Positions 13,738 to 23,481 of a stretch of DNA of 64,000 nt are shown here, in pieces. A program made the translations under genes and the position numbers. The notes under the pieces were generated by a model that saw only the letters and a list, made by a program, of their open reading frames with translations, was not told where the DNA came from and did no database searches. The DNA is from Nocardioides sp. HDW12B (GTDB lineage Bacteria > Actinomycetota > Actinomycetes > Propionibacteriales > Nocardioidaceae), in the NCBI RefSeq assembly GCF_011299595.1, contig NZ_CP049867.1, forward strand, positions 2,976,001 through 3,040,000, in the 5' to 3' direction. The number at the start of each line of letters is the position of its first letter. Within the stretch, counting starts at the first letter, position 1.

Positions 13738-13979
13738 CGGCTGCGACTGGCTTTCATGACAGAAAAACGGCCACAACGGACTGATGGGGGTCGGTGATGG
13801 GCCATTGTCCACGGACGCGAGCGGACGCCAGGGCTCGGCAGACGGGGCTGGGGTCTAACTGCTTCATCTGGAGTGGACGTGGTCGCGTCAGACCCGCCGC
13901 CGACCCTTCGAAATCGCTCGGCCCGGAGGCGGGATGACCACGAAACCCGAGCTGAGGCGCCGCGAAGCGCACCGATTCT

Positions 13980-14300
13980 GTGCCGACTACCGAAGGGAAC
14001 ATTTATGTTCTCGTGCCAGCAGTGGTCGTCGCGAAGTCTGTGGCGGTGCCCAATACAAAGGCTCAGACCCACCGCTCCCTGCCCGAAGCAGCGGCCCGAT
14101 CTCTCGGGCACACGTTGCGCAGGCGGAGAGACGACGCCGGCCTCACGCAGGAGACTCTTGCCACCCGCGCCGGGGTGTCCGTCCAAATGGTTCGCCGCCT
14201 AGAGGCCGGCACCTCGAACCCGACCCTGGGCACCCTCTACGCCATCGCGACGGCCCTCGACGTGGCTTGGCCCGACCTGCTTGTCGAGGTCGAGCTCTGA
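13980..14300 (+). CDS. XRE-family transcriptional regulator
   Basis: This small DNA-binding protein has a Cro/C1-type helix-turn-helix: LGHTLRRRRDDAGLTQETLA, then AGVSVQMVRRLEAGTSNPTLGTL. The full frame from GTG 13980 is 106 residues, but the conserved domain begins only at about residue 40; in-frame GTGs at 14013, 14022, 14040 and 14046 are alternative starts and none has a strong Shine-Dalgarno. Its stop overlaps the start of the SRA-HNH endonuclease gene by one base (TGATG), so the two are translationally coupled. It probably represses the operon, like control proteins of restriction systems. Family assignment is firm, exact start is not. Confidence 0.85.
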   Translation: MPTTEGNIYVLVPAVVVAKSVAVPNTKAQTHRSLPEAAARSLGHTLRRRRDDAGLTQETLATRAGVSVQMVRRLEAGTSNPTLGTLYAIATALDVAWPDLLVEVEL

Positions 14301-15262
14301 TGCCCGGCAGAGTCGATTACTACTTCGGAGAACTTCCCGGACACCCAGTTGGAAGCACTTACCGCGGGCGTAAGGAAGCAATGTGGGCAGGATTGCACGA
14401 CAACTGGGTTCCGGGAATCTCAGGCAACGGCGACGTCGGAGCCAACTGCATTGCTTTAAATAAGGGCTACGTTGACGACGAAGATCACGGCGATTGGATT
14501 CTGTATACGGGGGCGGGGGCAAATGATTCCTCGACTGGGCGTCAAATAGCAGATCAGGACATTAATCATCGCCATAACGCTGCCCTTGTGTACAGCGAAC
14601 AAAATGGGCTGCCAGTTCGCGTGCTACGGGGACCAAAGGGCGAGAGGCCATATGCCCCTAGCGTGGGTTACAGATACGACGGCCTATATAAGGTCATTGG
14701 GCACTGGGCCGAGCCGGGGCGGGATGGGTATCGCATCTGGCGTTTTCGCCTTTCCCGACTGTCTCCTGACGAGGCGATCGCTTGGACGCCAGGGGAACAA
14801 CGTTCCGCAGGCACCGAGATGGCCCAGAGGTCATCGAGCACTGGTTCCGACGCAACGGGGCAGACGACTGGCGCGCCCACCGGAAATCAGGAGCCCGGCC
14901 GCGCGAGTGGCATCGTTCAACGCATCGTTCGATCAACCGCAGTAAGTCAGCATGTGAAGGAACTCCACGGTCACCGGTGCCAAATGTGCGGCCTGAAACT
15001 CGACCTCTTAGTCGGTCAGTACAGCGAGGGTGCCCACATTCGAGCACTCGGAGCACCGCACAATGGGCCGGACACTATTGAAAACGTGCTTTGCCTGTGC
15101 CCTAACGATCATGTACTACTTGACAAGGGAGCAATCTACATTAGCGACGATCTAACCATTTTCCGTCACGACGGCGCGCCTCTTGGGAATCTGACAACGC
15201 GACCGGACCATCGGATTTCAATTCAGAATATCGGTTACCATCGACTGCATCATGGCTTCTGA
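14300..15262 (+). CDS. SRA(YDG)-HNH modification-dependent endonuclease
   Basis: This 320-residue protein has an N-terminal YDG/SRA domain (about residues 5-150): GELPGHPVGSTYRGR, GISGNGDVGANCIALNKGY, DDEDHGDWILYTG and GYRYDGLYKV. The C-terminal HNH nuclease is in about 215-300: CQMCGLKLD, EGAHIRALG, ENVLCLCPNDHVLLD. SRA domains flip and read 5-methyl- or 5-hydroxymethylcytosine, and SRA-HNH proteins cut modified DNA (type IV-like restriction). ATG 14300 overlaps the stop of the XRE regulator gene. The frame is open further upstream but in the wrong register relative to the regulator. Base composition is distinctly less GC-rich than the neighbours (A/T-rich third positions), a sign of horizontal transfer. 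Confidence 0.92.
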   Translation: MPGRVDYYFGELPGHPVGSTYRGRKEAMWAGLHDNWVPGISGNGDVGANCIALNKGYVDDEDHGDWILYTGAGANDSSTGRQIADQDINHRHNAALVYSEQNGLPVRVLRGPKGERPYAPSVGYRYDGLYKVIGHWAEPGRDGYRIWRFRLSRLSPDEAIAWTPGEQRSAGTEMAQRSSSTGSDATGQTTGAPTGNQEPGRASGIVQRIVRSTAVSQHVKELHGHRCQMCGLKLDLLVGQYSEGAHIRALGAPHNGPDTIENVLCLCPNDHVLLDKGAIYISDDLTIFRHDGAPLGNLTTRPDHRISIQNIGYHRLHHGF

Positions 15263-15461: not shown

Positions 15462-16625
15462 GTGGGAGCGTGGACCTCACCCCTCAGCGACCTCCAGCCC
15501 AGCCCCTACGGACCGCTCACGACCCAGGTCACGTGCCGCACCGGCACGCGCGGCCGTGGCACCAAGCACGACGTCACCCTCGCCAGCGACTGGTCGCTGA
15601 CCACTCCCCACGACCTCGACGCCGAGCGCATCCTCGCGGCCTTCGGCGGCACCCTCTCGTGCATCCCGTTGAACGACGTCGTCGTGCCAGCCCTCCACGA
15701 GCTGGTCCAGCTTTCGGCCCGCCGCCGACTGGCCGGGGTGCGGCGTACCGACCGCAGCCGCTGGATCCTCACCCGCCGCACCTGCCCGCGCTGCCACGAC
15801 CGCGCCTTCCGCACCCCCGCCGACGCCGCCCGGCACGAGCGCACCCTCGACCACTGGGTCGGCGCCACCCGCGCCGACCGGCGCTCCCTCGGCAAGCTGT
15901 ACGACGCCGTCGGTCACGCCCACCACCAAGCCGACACCACCCGCCCCCGCCAGCACCCTCTCGTCCACGAGGTCGGCGGCGTGGCCGACCTGTGGGAGGC
16001 GGGCGTGCCGCTGGAGTTCGTCGAGCACGTCCACGCCCAGGTCTGGCCCGACGGGCCGGCGCTGTCGGTCGCGCTCTACCTCAGCGCGGCGTACCTCCTG
16101 CCCGACCTCGACTGGCTCGCCGCCGTCGCCCTCCAGCGCCCGGACCCGGACACCCTGACCTGGGCGGCGTGGACCGAGTGCGACCTCGACCGGCACCACC
16201 CCGAGTCCCGGCTGCAGTGGCTCGCGACCGGACTGTCGGTGCGCGACGTGCAGCGGCTGATGACCGCGGGCTACACCATCGACGACGCGCAGGACTACGC
16301 ACGACGGACCGGACGCCCGCTGCGCTCCGCCGCCGCGTTCCTCGCCGCCTGGCACGCCGCCGACTGCCTCCCCGGCTCCGGCGACCTCGCCGCGCTCGAG
16401 GCGGCCGCCCCCGACGCCTGGACCGTGCCCAGCGGTGGCGCCATCGACCTGCTCGCCAACGACGTCAGCGGGCTGCGGCCGGTGCCCACCCGCACTCAGG
16501 TCGGGCTCGTGCTGGCGATCGCCGGGACGCGCGCGCGGGCGCTCAGCCTGCTGCGGCTCGGCGTCCGCACGCCCGCTGAGGCCGCGGTGTTCCTGGACGA
16601 CTCGCTGCCGCTCGGGGGTGAGTGA
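15462..16625 (+). CDS. Hypothetical protein upstream of MoxR-VWA genes
   Basis: This 387-residue protein was not recognised. GTG 15462 has an excellent GAGGAGG seven bases upstream. Around residues 107-131 it has a possible zinc-binding pattern, CPRC followed by two His spaced H-x5-H (C-x2-C-x13-H-x5-H), resembling a C2H2 finger. Most of the remainder is alpha-helical, Ala/Leu/Asp-rich, with repeated acidic-aromatic stretches (ALSVALYLSAAYLLPDLDWL; LTWAAWTECDLD). No signal peptide or membrane span is seen. It precedes a MoxR-type ATPase and a VWA protein, separated from them by a repeat array, so it may be a substrate or adaptor of that pair. This is inference from gene order. Confidence 0.75.
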   Translation: MGAWTSPLSDLQPSPYGPLTTQVTCRTGTRGRGTKHDVTLASDWSLTTPHDLDAERILAAFGGTLSCIPLNDVVVPALHELVQLSARRRLAGVRRTDRSRWILTRRTCPRCHDRAFRTPADAARHERTLDHWVGATRADRRSLGKLYDAVGHAHHQADTTRPRQHPLVHEVGGVADLWEAGVPLEFVEHVHAQVWPDGPALSVALYLSAAYLLPDLDWLAAVALQRPDPDTLTWAAWTECDLDRHHPESRLQWLATGLSVRDVQRLMTAGYTIDDAQDYARRTGRPLRSAAAFLAAWHAADCLPGSGDLAALEAAAPDAWTVPSGGAIDLLANDVSGLRPVPTRTQVGLVLAIAGTRARALSLLRLGVRTPAEAAVFLDDSLPLGGE

Positions 16626-16633
16626 GGTCGCGA

Positions 16634-16868
16634 CGAGCTCGACCACTGGGGTCACCGGGTCTCGACATCGGTCGCTGCGCGACCTGCTCGACCACCGAAG
16701 TGCTCGACCAGCAGGGTCACCGGGTCTCGACATCGGTCGCTGCGCGACCTGCTCGACCACCGATTCAGCTCGACCACCGGGTCACCGGGTCTCGACGACG
16801 CTCGCTGGCGCTCGCTGCTCGACCAACGGAACTAGCTCGACCAACGGATCTCGACAGGCTCGATCACC
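16634..16868. repeat. Array of dispersed TCGAC/GCTCGACC repeat units
   Basis: Several copies of a short element reading GGTCTCGAC...GCTCGACCACC are clustered here. GGTCACCGGGTCTCGAC occurs three times, two of them joined to CATCGGTCGCTGCGCGACC and one to the longer GACGCTCGCTGGCGCTCGCT version; short forms (CTCGACAGGCTCGATC) end the array. The same element occurs at 17434-17544, 18167-18271, 19444-19500, 23352-23481, 55434-55601 and 58196-58319. Copies contain partial inverted repeats built on TCGA. The array ends just before the AAGGAG of the MoxR gene. Confidence 0.85.
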
Positions 16869-16883
16869 GAATCAAGGAGACGC

Positions 16884-18113
16884 ATGACCATTCGCACGCG
16901 CACCGACTACGAGCACGCCCTGACCGCCCTCGGCGTCTGCGTCAGCGCCCGCATCCCCGTCCTGCTCTGGGGCAACCCCGGCGAGGGCAAGACCGCCGTC
17001 GTGGAGTCCGCGCGCGAGGGCGGCTGGCACGTCGAGACCCTCATCGTCAGCCACTACGAACCCAGCGACTTCGCCGGCCTCCCCGTCCTCACCGGCGACG
17101 GCGGCGTCTCGCTCGCCCCGCCCCAGTGGGCCAAGCGCCTCGCCGCCCACGAGGGACCGGCCATCGCGTTCTTCGACGAGTTCAGCACCGCCTCCCCCGC
17201 GCTCCAGGCCGCCGCGCTGCACCCGCTCACCCACTACGAGGTCGGGTCGCTGCAGCTGCCCGAGACCGTCTCCTTCGTCGCCGCCGCCAACCCCGCCGAC
17301 GTCGCGGCCGCCGGCTGGGAGCTCGCCTCCCCCACCGCCTCACGCTTCGTCCACCTCGACTGGGGCATGCCGCTCGAGGTGTACGCCGAGTCGATGGTCA
17401 CCGGGGTGTGGCCGGCGATGCCGGTGTTCGATCGGGTCTCGACCGACGAGGTCTCGACGACGCTCGCTGGCGCTCGCTGCTCGACCACCGGGGGCGGCTC
17501 GACCACCGGGGAGGACGAGGTCTCGACAAGCTCGACCACCGAAGCTACGACCCGTGAGCGGGTGCTGGTCGCGGGGTTCCTACGCACCCGCGAGTCCCAG
17601 CTCAGCGTCATCCCCAAGGACGCCGCCGGCCGCGGCCGGGCGTTCCCCACCCCCCGCACCTGGGAGTACGCCGCACGCCTGCTCGGTCTGGCCCGCGCGC
17701 TCGGCACGCACGCCACCGTCCGACGCCTCCTGGCGGCCGGCTGCCTGGGGGACGCGGTCGCCCACGAGTACCTCGCCTGGGTCGCCGCCCAGGACCTCGT
17801 CGACCCCGAAGCGCTGCTGGCCGACCCCGCGGCGTACGACTTCGCCGGCATGCGCGCCGACCGCGTGCACGTCAGCCTCCAGGCCGTCCTCGGCGCCGTC
17901 GCCCGCGACAACGCACCCCAGCGGTGGACCAACGCCGTGCTGCTCTGCGCCCGCGCCGCCGAGGCGGTCGGCGTAGACCCGGCCGTGCCCGTCGTGCGCG
18001 CGCTGGTCCGTGACGGGCTGCGCCCGGCCGGCGCCGCCGTACCGCCCCAGATCGCCGTCTTCGCCCCTGCCCTCGCGCTCGCGGGCCTGCTCCCGGACCG
18101 CCCCGCAGCATGA
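16884..18113 (+). CDS. MoxR-family AAA+ ATPase with an in-frame repeat insertion
   Basis: This 409-residue AAA+ ATPase of the MoxR/RavA-like group has Walker A GNPGEGKT at residues 30-37 and Walker B IAFFDEFS around 95-102. The sensor region SFVAAANPADVAAAGWELASPTASRFVHLD follows. ATG 16884 has AAGGAG upstream. MoxR ATPases usually act with VWA proteins as chaperones that insert cofactors or remodel complexes, and the next gene is such a partner, overlapping by four bases (ATGA). Residues about 184-220 (bases 17434-17544) are Ser/Thr/Gly-rich low complexity encoded by copies of the dispersed repeat, inserted between the ATPase core and the C-terminal lid, without breaking the frame. Function of the complex is unknown. 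Confidence 0.88.
   Translation: MTIRTRTDYEHALTALGVCVSARIPVLLWGNPGEGKTAVVESAREGGWHVETLIVSHYEPSDFAGLPVLTGDGGVSLAPPQWAKRLAAHEGPAIAFFDEFSTASPALQAAALHPLTHYEVGSLQLPETVSFVAAANPADVAAAGWELASPTASRFVHLDWGMPLEVYAESMVTGVWPAMPVFDRVSTDEVSTTLAGARCSTTGGGSTTGEDEVSTSSTTEATTRERVLVAGFLRTRESQLSVIPKDAAGRGRAFPTPRTWEYAARLLGLARALGTHATVRRLLAAGCLGDAVAHEYLAWVAAQDLVDPEALLADPAAYDFAGMRADRVHVSLQAVLGAVARDNAPQRWTNAVLLCARAAEAVGVDPAVPVVRALVRDGLRPAGAAVPPQIAVFAPALALAGLLPDRPAA
17434..17544. repeat. Dispersed repeat copies inside the MoxR coding region
   Basis: Three element copies lie in frame: a short GGTCTCGACC start, a long copy with GACGCTCGCTGGCGCTCGCT, and a short copy with TCTCGACAAGCTCGACC. They are read as Val-Ser-Thr and Ser-Thr-Thr-Gly runs and no stop is created. 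The segment matches the intergenic copies at 16634-16868 rather than any MoxR domain. Confidence 0.85.
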
Positions 18114-19435
18114 GCGCCCACCTGCTCGACCGGCTGGCGGCGGCGAAGCTGTGGCTGATCACCGAGGATCTCGACAGGCTCGATCAGCGTGGACAGGGTC
18201 TCGACGACGCTCGCTCGCGCTCGCTGCTCGACCACCGTGGGTCACCGGGTCTCGACAAGCTCGACCACGGGGGGCCGCCGGGGCTGGCGTACCTCGCGCA
18301 CGCGCTCTACGCGCTGGTCCCGGTGCTGACCGAGGACGTCGAGACGATGACCGTCGACGAGCGCTGGCGCGTCTACGTCCACCCCGGCTGGCTGGCCGCC
18401 AGCGACGTACCCACCGTCGCCGGCGACCTCGCCCACGTCACGTGGCACCTGCTGCTCGACCACGCCGACCGCGCCCGCGACCAGCACGTCGACGCCCGCA
18501 CCGCCGAGCCGTGGCACCAGGCCGCGGACCTCACCGTGCGGCAGGTGCTCGACGGTGACGCGCTCGCCAACGAGCTGCCGTGGACGACCGGGATGGCGCC
18601 GAACCTGTCGGCCGAGGAGTACTTCGCGATCATCTCCCGACTCCCCGCCGCGCTCGACGACGAGCCCACCGACACCGGCCCCCCTCCGCCCGGGTGCGGC
18701 AGCGGCTGCGACGGCCTGCTCCGCAGCCACGAGCTGCCGCCGGACGCCGACGCCGCCGGGGTCGACGCCGAGGACGCCCGCCACATCCGCCGCCGGGTCG
18801 CCATCGACTTCACCGAGCACTGCACGCGCCGCGGCACCGAGCCGGGCGACGCCGGGCGCTGGGCCAAGGAGATCCTCGAGCCGACGATCGCCTGGGAGCC
18901 GCTCCTCGCCGGAGCTGTACGACGAGGGGCCGGCTGGGCCCACGGGCACGCCGAGTACACCTACACCCGCCCGTCGCGGAGGGCCGGCGCGGTCAGGGGC
19001 ATCGTGCTGCCGTCGACCCGGAGGCCACTGCCCCGGGTGGCGATGGTCGTCGACACCTCCGGCTCGGTCGACGACCGGCTGCTCGGGCGCGCGCTCGGCG
19101 AGGTCGACGGGGCCCTGCGAGCCCTGGGGGTGGGCAGCCAGGCGGTCAGCGTCATCTCGTGCGACGTGGCCGCGACCCAGCCCACGCGGGTCCGCCGCGC
19201 GCGCGAGGTACGCCTGGCCGGAGGGGGTGGCACCGACATGCGCGTCGGCATCCGGGCCGCCGAGGCGTTGCGGCCACGACCGGACCTGGTGGTGGTGCTG
19301 ACCGACGGTTACACGCCGTGGCCGGACGCTCCCCCGCCCGGCGCGGCCGTGGTGGTGGCACTGCTCGGTCGCGATCGGCGCGAGCTGCCGCCGACCCCTT
19401 CGTGGGCGACCCGGGTCGAGTGCCTGCTCGACTGA
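18110..19435 (+). CDS. DUF2201-like metallopeptidase/VWA-domain protein
   Basis: This 441-residue protein is the partner of the MoxR ATPase, whose stop it overlaps (ATGA). The N-terminal half resembles the putative metallopeptidase domain of the DUF2201 family, with HVTWHLLLDH in the place of the HExxH-type helix (the Glu is missing, so activity is doubtful). The C-terminal half is a VWA-like domain with MIDAS motifs DTSGSV (about residue 316), GGGTDM and LTDGYTPW. Residues about 20-54 (bases 18167-18271) are encoded by dispersed repeat copies and read LDRLD, LDDARSRSLLDHR and LDKLDHG, an in-frame insertion near the N-terminus. Metal-dependent ligand binding is expected of the VWA part. Confidence 0.85.
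   Translation: MSAHLLDRLAAAKLWLITEDLDRLDQRGQGLDDARSRSLLDHRGSPGLDKLDHGGPPGLAYLAHALYALVPVLTEDVETMTVDERWRVYVHPGWLAASDVPTVAGDLAHVTWHLLLDHADRARDQHVDARTAEPWHQAADLTVRQVLDGDALANELPWTTGMAPNLSAEEYFAIISRLPAALDDEPTDTGPPPPGCGSGCDGLLRSHELPPDADAAGVDAEDARHIRRRVAIDFTEHCTRRGTEPGDAGRWAKEILEPTIAWEPLLAGAVRRGAGWAHGHAEYTYTRPSRRAGAVRGIVLPSTRRPLPRVAMVVDTSGSVDDRLLGRALGEVDGALRALGVGSQAVSVISCDVAATQPTRVRRAREVRLAGGGGTDMRVGIRAAEALRPRPDLVVVLTDGYTPWPDAPPPGAAVVVALLGRDRRELPPTPSWATRVECLLD
18167..18271. repeat. Dispersed repeat copies inside the VWA coding region
   Basis: Three copies lie in tandem: ATCTCGACAGGCTCGATC, a long GGTCTCGACGACGCTCGC version, and GGTCTCGACAAGCTCGACC. They are translated in a different frame from the copies in the MoxR gene (Leu-Asp-rich here, Ser-Thr-rich there), so the element is open in at least two frames. 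Confidence 0.85.
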
Positions 19436-19443
19436 GTGCGGCG

Positions 19444-19500
19444 GTCACCGGGTCTCGACGACGGTCGCTGGCGCTCCCTGCTCCTCGGATCGAGCCCGTT
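19444..19500. repeat. Dispersed repeat copy downstream of the VWA gene
   Basis: This single long-form copy begins GTCACCGGGTCTCGACGACG and ends GGATCGAGCCCGTTGAG, just after the VWA stop codon. It shows some sequence drift in the core relative to copies at 16634-16868. Confidence 0.75.
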
Positions 19501-19527
19501 GAGGGCAACCACCGGTCGCGAGCGACC

Positions 19528-19565
19528 TATGCAAGAATCTTGTTTGTCTTTGCATAGATCTTGCA
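19528..19565. promoter_or_regulatory. 38-bp site, copy 1, upstream of the Fic gene
   Basis: The sequence starts TATGCAAGAATCTTG and ends TCTTGCA; 34 of 38 bases match the site at 20937-20974. It contains the dyad CAAGA-N-TCTTG and outer arms TGCAAGA / TCTTGCA. It ends 28 bp before the Fic start codon; the second copy ends 34 bp before the next gene. This placement suggests a shared operator or promoter, possibly bound by the Fic protein's own C-terminal helix-turn-helix. Confidence 0.7.
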
Positions 19566-19593
19566 CACCCCCGCCCATGCCCTGGAGGCTCGA

Positions 19594-20928
19594 GTGAAAG
19601 TACCGGCGCGTCCCCCGGCGTTCGACGAGCTTCTCAGGAAGATCATGGCGTCCGACAACGCCGTGAGGGCGATGCTCGCAGCGCAACAGCACACACCCAC
19701 AACTGAGTACCTGTCGTGGGACAGGGTGCGAAACAAGACTCCACCCGAGGGCTTGACGCACGAGGAGTGGTGGTTCGGCCTCAAGATGGCCAGGCGCTCG
19801 GCACAGCGAGATCTTGCATCGCTCCTCGCCATTGACGGCACCCCCTTCCACTTCAACCTCCCCGACCAGCTCCTCCGACTGATCGATGAGATCAATCGAA
19901 GCGCGAGCGGCAACATCAGCATCGGTGAGGAGGTCACCAATCCGGGCACACGTGATCGCTATGTCGTGACCTCACTGATCGAGGAGGCAATCACCTCGAG
20001 CCAGCTCGAGGGAGCGGCCACGAGCCGGCGTGTGGCCAAGGAGATGCTCCGCTCCGGACGCCCTCCACGCGACCACTCAGAACGGATGATCGTCAACAAC
20101 TTCCACGCGATGCGGTTGGTCCTCGACTTCCAGGACGATCGCCTGACCCCGGAGCGAGTTCTGGAGCTGCACCGGGTCGTCACCGATGGAACCTTGGCAG
20201 ACCCGGAGGATGCCGGCCGACTGCAGACCGACCAGGCGGAGCGAATCGCTGTGTACGGCGATCACGACCAGCTCCTGCACAGCCCTCCTCACGTGGATGA
20301 GCTGCCGGAACGCCTCCAACGCCTGTGCGACTTCGCCAATGCCGATCCGGAGGACGAGAGTCTCTATCTCCCCCCTGTGCTGCGCGCCGTGGCGCTTCAC
20401 TTCATGGTCGGCTACGACCACTACTTCGTCGACGGCAACGGGCGGACAGCTCGCGCACTCTTCTACTGGAGCATGGTTCGCCAGGGTTACTGGCTCACCG
20501 AGTTCCTCACGATCTCGACGATCCTGAAGGGCGCTCCCGCCAAGTACGGCCGCAGCTTCCTGCTCAGCGAGGACGATGAGGGGGACCTCACGCACTTCTT
20601 CGTCTACCACTGTCAGGTCATCGTGCGAGCGATAGAAGCTCTGCACGAGTATCTGGCTCGCAAAGCCGATGAGGTGCGTGACCTGCGGAACAGGCTGGGC
20701 TCGACAGGCCGGTTCAATCACCGTCAGCTGGCGATGCTCGAGCATGCGATCAAGAACCCGGGGGCGACGTACACCGCGCAGTCACACGCGCGGAGCCACC
20801 AGGTGACCACTCAGACGGCGCGACAGGACCTGGGGCAGCTCGAAGAGCTGGGCCTGCTCCGCCACGAGACGTCCGGACGCCGGATGATCTGGTCGGCGTC
20901 TCCAGACCTTCGAGAAAGGCTGATCTAG
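19594..20928 (+). CDS. Fic/DOC family protein with C-terminal winged-helix region
   Basis: This 444-residue Fic protein belongs to the family that transfers AMP or similar groups to target proteins. The catalytic loop is HYFVDGNGR at residues 276-284 (family HxFxDGNGR), with all key residues present. The inhibitory helix motif SSQLEG (S-x-x-x-E-G) at 135-140 precedes the Fic core, as in class II self-inhibited Fic proteins. The C-terminus (about 370-440; GATYTAQSHARSHQVTTQTA) looks like a winged helix, suggesting DNA binding and autoregulation. GTG 19594 with GGAGG five bases upstream is chosen over TTG 19561. A 38-bp dyad-containing site precedes it and recurs before the next gene. The target protein is unknown. 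Confidence 0.9.
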   Translation: MKVPARPPAFDELLRKIMASDNAVRAMLAAQQHTPTTEYLSWDRVRNKTPPEGLTHEEWWFGLKMARRSAQRDLASLLAIDGTPFHFNLPDQLLRLIDEINRSASGNISIGEEVTNPGTRDRYVVTSLIEEAITSSQLEGAATSRRVAKEMLRSGRPPRDHSERMIVNNFHAMRLVLDFQDDRLTPERVLELHRVVTDGTLADPEDAGRLQTDQAERIAVYGDHDQLLHSPPHVDELPERLQRLCDFANADPEDESLYLPPVLRAVALHFMVGYDHYFVDGNGRTARALFYWSMVRQGYWLTEFLTISTILKGAPAKYGRSFLLSEDDEGDLTHFFVYHCQVIVRAIEALHEYLARKADEVRDLRNRLGSTGRFNHRQLAMLEHAIKNPGATYTAQSHARSHQVTTQTARQDLGQLEELGLLRHETSGRRMIWSASPDLRERLI

Positions 20929-20936
20929 GTCCCCTT

Positions 20937-20974
20937 TATGCAAGATTCTTGTTTGCCTTTGCATACGTCTTGCA
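20937..20974. promoter_or_regulatory. 38-bp site, copy 2, between Fic and pRiA4b-like genes
   Basis: This is the second copy of the site at 19528-19565, in the same orientation and 9 bp after the Fic stop codon. It keeps TATGCAAGA, CAAGATTCTTG, TTTGCATA and the terminal TCTTGCA. It ends 34 bp before the GTG of the next gene, nearly the same distance as copy 1 from the Fic start. Confidence 0.7.
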
Positions 20975-21008
20975 TTCGATGCGCCAAGGGTCGCCCTAGG
21001 CTCCTGGG

Positions 21009-22295
21009 GTGGCTGCTTCCCGACGCCGACCGCGTCTCGACGAACCGGCGGTCCTTCGCGTCCGTGTCACCCTCGAGCACTCCGACCCGCCGATCGTCCG
21101 TGTCCTCGACCTCCGCTCGGACCTGCGACTGGATCAGGTCCACGAGGTCCTGCAGGTCGCCTTCGGGTGGGCTGACTCCCACCTGCATCGCTTCGCTCTC
21201 GGCGAGAGCGTGTTCGACGACACCTCGGAGAAATTCCTGTGTTCCTTCGACGTCGAGGAGCAGGACGACGGGGTTCCCGAGACCACCGTTCACCTCGACG
21301 AGACGCTGTCCCGCCCGGGCGACGTGCTGCGCTACTGCTACGACTACGGCGACGACTGGTCGCTCGACCTCGTCCTCGAGGACGTGCAGGCTCTCGACCG
21401 GGTGAGCGTGTCGGCCCGCTGCGTGGCCGCCGAGCGCGCCGCGCCCCCGGAGGACTGCGGCAGCCGACGCACCGCCGAGGAGCTCGCCGGAGTGCTCGCC
21501 GATCCCGCTCACGTCGACGTGCACGACATCAACGAGGTGCTCGGCTCACCGCTCGCCCGGTTGGTCACCGGCCCCTTCACTCCTGACCTCGTCGCCGCCC
21601 TTCTCCCCCTGACCGGCTCCCTCCCGGACCGGATCGTGCCGGGCCTTCTCGCGCAGCTCGACGAGCCCGCACCACTCGACCGCGCCGAGAAGGAGAGGGC
21701 GCTGTCCACCATCCGGTGGTTCCTCGAGCGCATCGGAGCCGACGGGCTGGCGATGACGGCCGCGGGCTGGCTGCGCCCCGAGGACGTGGTCGCCGCGTCC
21801 GAGATGGTGCCGGACGGACCGGACTGGATCGGCAAGAAGAACCGCGAGATCGACACCGTCCCCGTGCACCAGTTCCGACTGATGCTCGCGGACCTGGGAC
21901 TGACCCGGAAGTACGAGGGACGGCTGCGACTCAGCAAGTCCGGCGCTGCGGCGTACGACGACCCCGACCGGCTCTGGCGCTTGCTCGCCGGCGCGCTGCC
22001 ACCCGGCAAGACGCGCACCTTCGCTCGGCAGGCCGGTCTGCTGGTGCTCGCACAGATCGCCGCGACGGGCGTCAGCGACACCGACGCCGTGGCACGCGCC
22101 CTCACCAACCTTGGCTGGCGCACCAGCGACGGGCGACGGGTCGATGGCTTCCAGGCGTATGACGCGACACGCGCCGTCCACGCCGCCCTCGCCAGCCTGG
22201 ACCCGTCCCGCCACCGGCGGATGCGCCGCCCGGAGGACAGCTTCGGTCCGGCGGGGCGACAGCTGGCGTTCGAGGCCCTCCTCGACCTCCACTGA
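21009..22295 (+). CDS. pRiA4b ORF-3-like domain protein
   Basis: This 428-residue protein has an N-terminal plasmid pRiA4b ORF-3-like domain: LRVRVTLEHSDPPIVRVLDL, LDQVHEVLQVAFGWADSHLH, DVLRYCYDYGDDWSLDLVLE. The latter Y-x-Y-D-x-G-D-x-W motif is the family hallmark. The C-terminal about 280 residues are helical and unassigned. Function of this domain family is not established; it is common on plasmids and in accessory regions. The GTG 21009 start lies 34 bp after a 38-bp site shared with the Fic gene, so the two genes are probably co-regulated. No membrane span or signal peptide is visible. Confidence 0.87.
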   Translation: MAASRRRPRLDEPAVLRVRVTLEHSDPPIVRVLDLRSDLRLDQVHEVLQVAFGWADSHLHRFALGESVFDDTSEKFLCSFDVEEQDDGVPETTVHLDETLSRPGDVLRYCYDYGDDWSLDLVLEDVQALDRVSVSARCVAAERAAPPEDCGSRRTAEELAGVLADPAHVDVHDINEVLGSPLARLVTGPFTPDLVAALLPLTGSLPDRIVPGLLAQLDEPAPLDRAEKERALSTIRWFLERIGADGLAMTAAGWLRPEDVVAASEMVPDGPDWIGKKNREIDTVPVHQFRLMLADLGLTRKYEGRLRLSKSGAAAYDDPDRLWRLLAGALPPGKTRTFARQAGLLVLAQIAATGVSDTDAVARALTNLGWRTSDGRRVDGFQAYDATRAVHAALASLDPSRHRRMRRPEDSFGPAGRQLAFEALLDLH

Positions 22296-23342: not shown

Positions 23343-23351
23343 GGGTCGCCA

Positions 23352-23481
23352 GGTCTCGACGACGCTCGCTGGCGCTCGCTGCTCCTTGGATCGAGCTCGT
23401 CGAGATCGACCGGCGGGTGACTCTGCTCCTTGGATCGAGCGGGTCTCGACGACGCTCGCTGGCGCTCGCTGCTCGACCAAC
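23352..23481. repeat. Dispersed repeat copies between convergent genes
   Basis: Two long-form copies (GGTCTCGACGACGCTCGCTG...) flank shorter variants ending in GGATCGAGC, in the gap between the FkbM gene and the convergent oxidoreductase gene. The copy closest to 23,481 ends in CTCGACCAAC, seven bases before the stop of the neighbour. The placement between two 3' ends is the least harmful one. Confidence 0.85.

Follow-up and report, generated by a model that had tools for sequence, protein, structure and literature searches.

Candidate operators before and after an actinobacterial fic gene and the probable autoregulation of its winged-helix Fic protein

The stretch of DNA analysed here (the window) comprises 64,000 nucleotides of Nocardioides sp. 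HDW12B and carries, on the forward strand, a fic gene (19594-20928; 444 aa, GTG start, TAG stop), preceded by a GGAGG ribosome-binding site read from the sequence (19584-19588) and followed after 80 bp by a gene resembling pRiA4b ORF-3 (PF07929; 21009-22295). A 38-bp repeat, identical at 34 of 38 positions, brackets fic. Its first copy (the 5' site, 19528-19565, forward strand), delimited from the sequence and from comparison with relatives, ends 28 nt before the GTG at 19594; the second (the 3' site, 20937-20974) begins 8 bp past the fic stop in direct orientation and ends 34 nt before the GTG at 21009 of the pRiA4b-like gene. Both copies contain CAAGA-N-TCTTG and both terminate in TCTTGCA. 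This layout had been described accurately in an earlier note, which proposed that Fic regulates its own gene together with its neighbour.

The fic product matches PF02661 (E 9e-17) and retains the Fic motif HxFx(D/E)GN(G/K)RxxR intact as H276-Y-F-V-D-G-N-G-R-T-A-R287 (20419-20454), in which H276, F278, D280-R284 and R287 are invariant across 21 homologues. On its N-terminal side, S135-S-Q-L-E139-G140 (19996-20013), the SxxxEG motif pointed out earlier as inhibitory, is of the class II type (S/T)xxxE(G/N), with S135, E139 and G140 likewise invariant across the 21 homologues; both motifs were placed by homologue alignment, and the protein is predicted to be a self-inhibited class II Fic acting as an AMPylator. 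The winged-helix-like C-terminus previously suspected is predicted as a winged helix by AlphaFold2 (mean pLDDT 88), spanning residues 376-435 (20719-20898), with helices 376-387, 395-402 and 406-418 and a wing at 422-435, the third helix, beginning T406-Q407, being the predicted recognition helix (20809-20847). Weak HTH_DeoR and SoFic-like_C matches accompany this prediction, and Pfam HTH matches to the C-terminus are below cut-off only. The closest solved structures to the model include Mycobacterium marinum Fic proteins, SoFic, CbFic2 and CccR. Phage and plasmid matches to the protein are distant (<=44% identity), and none of its relatives was found on viral contigs.

The repeat is peculiar to this locus. 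The combined 38-bp pattern has no match beyond the two copies in the 4.19-Mb genome, where a looser half-site pattern again finds just these two places; it does not occur in any of 199 further family genomes, and with <=3 mismatches it arose in none of 100 shuffles of the window. Judged against relatives, its more informative symmetry is TATGCAA-N15-TTGCATA, joined 11 bp further along by a third half-site, TTGCA; CAAGA-N-TCTTG is secondary. The half-sites of the first copy are TATGCAA at 19528-19534, the inverted TTGCATA at 19550-19556 and TTGCA at 19561-19565, and those of the second copy lie at 20937-20943, 20959-20965 and 20970-20974; the TATGCAA arms measure 29 bp from edge to edge, and a 25-bp inverted repeat (TGCAAGA...TTTGCA) occupies 19530-19554 of the first copy. 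Scanning 19400-21100 for promoters and terminators gave no hits, and neither site showed a recognisable sigma-70-like promoter.

Comparison with 55 related fic loci of several phyla, drawn from genome contigs and whole genomes, places this arrangement in a wider context. With half-site registers assigned by inspection, an inward-facing pair of the assigned half-sites (16-23 bp start to start) stands ahead of fic in 48 of the 55, while control stretches inside fic and well beyond its 3' end yield 0.000 per 200 bp; the remaining seven lack an upstream pair under the strict pair rule. Without preset half-sites, perfect inward 7-mer pairs occur in 43 of 56 upstream windows; control windows hold one in 14-16% of cases and shuffles in 6.5%. 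The typical upstream operator is a 25-bp inverted repeat with outer edges CT...AG, its bases being specific to clades (CTATCAA...TTGATAG, CTACTAA...TTAGTAG, CTGTAAA...TTTACAG, CTCCAA...TTGGAG and others), and additional half-sites frequently lie some 10-11 bp away, like the third half-site in the window. The window's own inward pair has a spacing of 22, the widest seen among the loci. A perfect inward pair also precedes fic in a Klebsiella plasmid homologue of 34% identity, and no inward pair was found ahead of fic in a Vibrio plasmid homologue (L118).

Operator bases also correspond to the two residues that open the predicted recognition helix. In a register set by the outer edges, which was taken up once the 25-bp span had been seen and makes the ranking partly post hoc, residue 406 ranks second among 436 protein columns for arm position 3 and first for bases 3 and 4 jointly, while residue 407 ranks second for position 4 and first for position 5; in the initial register, anchored on the inner AA, residue 407 ranked poorly. 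Tyr406 accompanies A at arm position 3 in 12 of 13 instances and is found with no other base there. The correspondence comprises few independent evolutionary changes, a number with which no sign test can get to 0.05, and the tree-based independent pairs, in tests short of power, include almost none in the wrong direction. This tracking is strong circumstantial evidence, rather than proof, that Fic itself binds the operators.

A second operator copy at or just past the fic stop is present in about 14 actinobacterial loci (the window, L005/L064, L020, L024, L039, L063, L066, L067, L068, L069, L070, L071 and L072), some of them called by eye without passing the strict pair rule (L005/L064, L066). 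In L020, L069 and L071, which form the CTGTAA clade, it overlaps the stop codon, and in L068 it occurs with no recognisable upstream copy. By reading of the open reading frames, the gene that follows is co-directional in seven loci and convergent in six, and its products, named from sequence by eye, are unrelated: DciA, LeuRS, MsrA, an SMR transporter, an Lhr-like helicase, an aminotransferase and others. Because the next gene is unrelated each time, and convergent in six, the 3' copy is judged to belong to fic. It is missing from most homologues outside Propionibacteriales and therefore is not essential to autoregulation. Upstream half-sites average 5.2 in loci without a 3' copy and 3.4 in loci with one, a pattern that would fit two operators as the usual number per gene. 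In 10 of 12 loci the two copies are more alike when compared in direct orientation; they share several spacer bases as well, and the tree implies about seven gains or losses of the 3' copy. One of the listed loci, L039 (G158), holds at 1399-2046 a shortened fic frame with an operator-like pair 88 bp past its stop, possibly a decaying copy.

The proposal that Fic, bound at both sites, controls itself and the pRiA4b-like gene as a toxin-antitoxin-like or defence module has two points in its favour: the 3' site lies 34 bp ahead of the pRiA4b start, next to a would-be -35 region where a bound protein could affect that gene, and the PADLOC SoFic profile matches Fic (E 1.3e-36). Against such a pair, fic and full-length pRiA4b are found together in no other of 299 family genomes, and the 3' copy precedes dciA, leuS, msrA and other genes or lies between convergent ones. 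Furthermore, TAGGCT at 20997-21002 (forward strand), read directly and compared with L042, L045 and L046, probably serves as the -10 element of a promoter from which pRiA4b is read without a leader; fic-less pRiA4b orthologues start in the same leaderless manner, with a TANNNT-like element shortly ahead of the GTG, and an apparent leaderless start is likewise kept by dciA behind the fic unit in L071. Co-regulation of pRiA4b as such a pair is thus unsupported and very improbable; the gene lies outside the conserved fic unit and looks like a bystander with its own leaderless promoter, though the 3' site is near enough upstream to influence it.

The origin of the site-fic-site arrangement bears on two further explanations, a cassette or a tandem duplication. 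In the former, site-fic-site would transpose or recombine as a unit, the direct repeats being its ends or an integration duplication; the scattered distribution of fic, its GC content of 63% against 71-75% in the neighbours, the better match in direct orientation and an insertion in one genus, where L071 carries fic and its two sites between recF and dciA, all speak for it. However, fic-less relatives of the same genus pass from recF directly to dciA with no site copy at the junction, and only four of 40 genomes of that genus carry the site, G875 being one (counted on site match alone), with no solo site in the other 36. Copy-free empty junctions together with the absence of solo sites argue against an ordinary target-site duplication, which was rejected at this one comparable insertion spot, as were solo attachment sites in those 36 genomes. 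In relatives that have it, the gene to the left of fic is followed by unrelated genes, leaving no clean empty homologue of the window's own spot. The alternative already raised in the earlier note, repeats flanking an inserted fic, is accordingly retained in part: the layout and the joint travel of both copies with fic stand, and the target-site duplication does not. Also against a cassette, the repeats follow an operator grammar found ahead of fic in phyla without a 3' copy, and an unsystematic reading of gene neighbourhoods showed no recombinase next to fic; on balance we regard a cassette as unlikely. Equally unlikely is that the 3' copy is a functionless relic of a tandem duplication of site-fic whose second fic was lost, an idea in keeping with the direct orientation, the matching spacer bases and the roughly seven gains or losses. 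It is countered by the CTGTAA clade, where the 3' copy retains half-sites and stop-codon overlap although the proteins have diverged and the next genes differ, a persistence that suggests selection.

Computation shows that the operators follow a common grammar, that their bases track the recognition helix, that both copies are linked to fic and that the next gene varies; together these results favour the interpretation that the 38-bp repeat is a pair of Fic operators, before and after the gene, with Fic autoregulating and pRiA4b incidental, which we consider likely with good confidence. Autoregulation, as first suggested in the earlier note, is well supported at the level of sequence comparison by clade-specific upstream operators across phyla, by their tracking with recognition-helix residues and by the precedent of CccR of Yersinia pseudotuberculosis, a class II Fic whose C-terminus carries an HTH and which represses its own promoter via an inverted repeat (PMC9755527). 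In the mechanism envisaged, the C-terminal winged helix would bind operators built of inward-facing half-sites, and Fic dimers occupying the 5' site, as an autoregulatory operator, would repress fic. The 3' site would probably cooperate with the 5' site, perhaps through a loop that spans the 1.4-kb gene or as a roadblock to transcription through the fic 3' end. It would not serve to drive the next gene, and any effect of Fic on pRiA4b would be secondary. A more speculative extension, which we hold to be quite unlikely, is that Fic on both gene ends would form a loop and a low-activity DNA-bound dimer, the flanking DNA helping to neutralise a toxic AMPylating enzyme and so taking the place of an antitoxin gene.

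Comparison with characterised systems brings out both parallels and departures. The window protein resembles CccR in being class II, with a predicted C-terminal winged helix and an inverted repeat upstream of its gene; CccR (PDB 7xux) was found by structure search and weakly by sequence, sequence similarity being low. The CccR footprint is one 46-nt site, AGATAATCAT-N26-ATGATAATCT, described in the CccR promoter only (PMC9755527), whereas in operators of the window type the paired arms span about 25 bp, further half-sites stand about 11 bp away and another operator follows at the 3' end of fic. The anti-phage SoFic/Sofic proteins (PDB 3eqx, 3zcn; PMC12249575) share domain layout and fold with the window Fic, which matches the PADLOC SoFic profile as stated above but scores 26.2 bits in the NCBIfam SoFic equivalog NF046030 against a cut-off of 550; moreover, the 80 bp between fic and pRiA4b offers no room for an AS1-like antitoxin gene of the Sofic kind. 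For SoFic itself, no binding to DNA had been demonstrated (PMC10628234). CbFic2 of Coxiella burnetii (PDB 8cil), a class II Fic with a C-terminal winged helix and a structure match to the window protein, is a dimer whose activity is stimulated by DNA binding; it was assayed with random DNA sequences, no native operator being described, and its target is histone H3 (PMC10628234). Winged-helix Fic proteins occur across several bacterial phyla, and in the literature compared a mapped operator exists for CccR only. The operator grammar and the 406/407 correspondence provide many predicted native sites, so that binding to DNA, the influence of such binding on AMPylation and the part played by a 3' operator become open to direct testing in harmless organisms.

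Several features of the surroundings may be recorded in their own right. In the genus with the recF-dciA insertion, fic stands directly 3' of recF in L069 and L071, in the latter just ahead of dciA. The gyrB gene usually lies near recF. Some Fic enzymes have been published as acting on DNA gyrase (PMC12894286). In the window itself, a gene with SRA (SAD) and HNH domains (13934-15262, forward strand; low GC, 59%), overlapped by an HTH_3 open reading frame at 13980-14300, lies about 4.3 kb ahead of fic and resembles a restriction gene for modified DNA that was acquired horizontally. Between them runs a group of three forward-strand genes (15462-19435) encoding an unknown 387-aa protein, an AAA_5 (MoxR-like) ATPase and a DUF2201 metallopeptidase/VWA-like protein, the last of which is followed by different genes in other genomes. 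A dispersed repeat, GGTCTCGACGACGCTCGCTGGCGCTCGCTGCTC, recurs with variants at 16640-16830, 18150-18270, 19447-19500 and 23350-23480, partly within predicted open reading frames.
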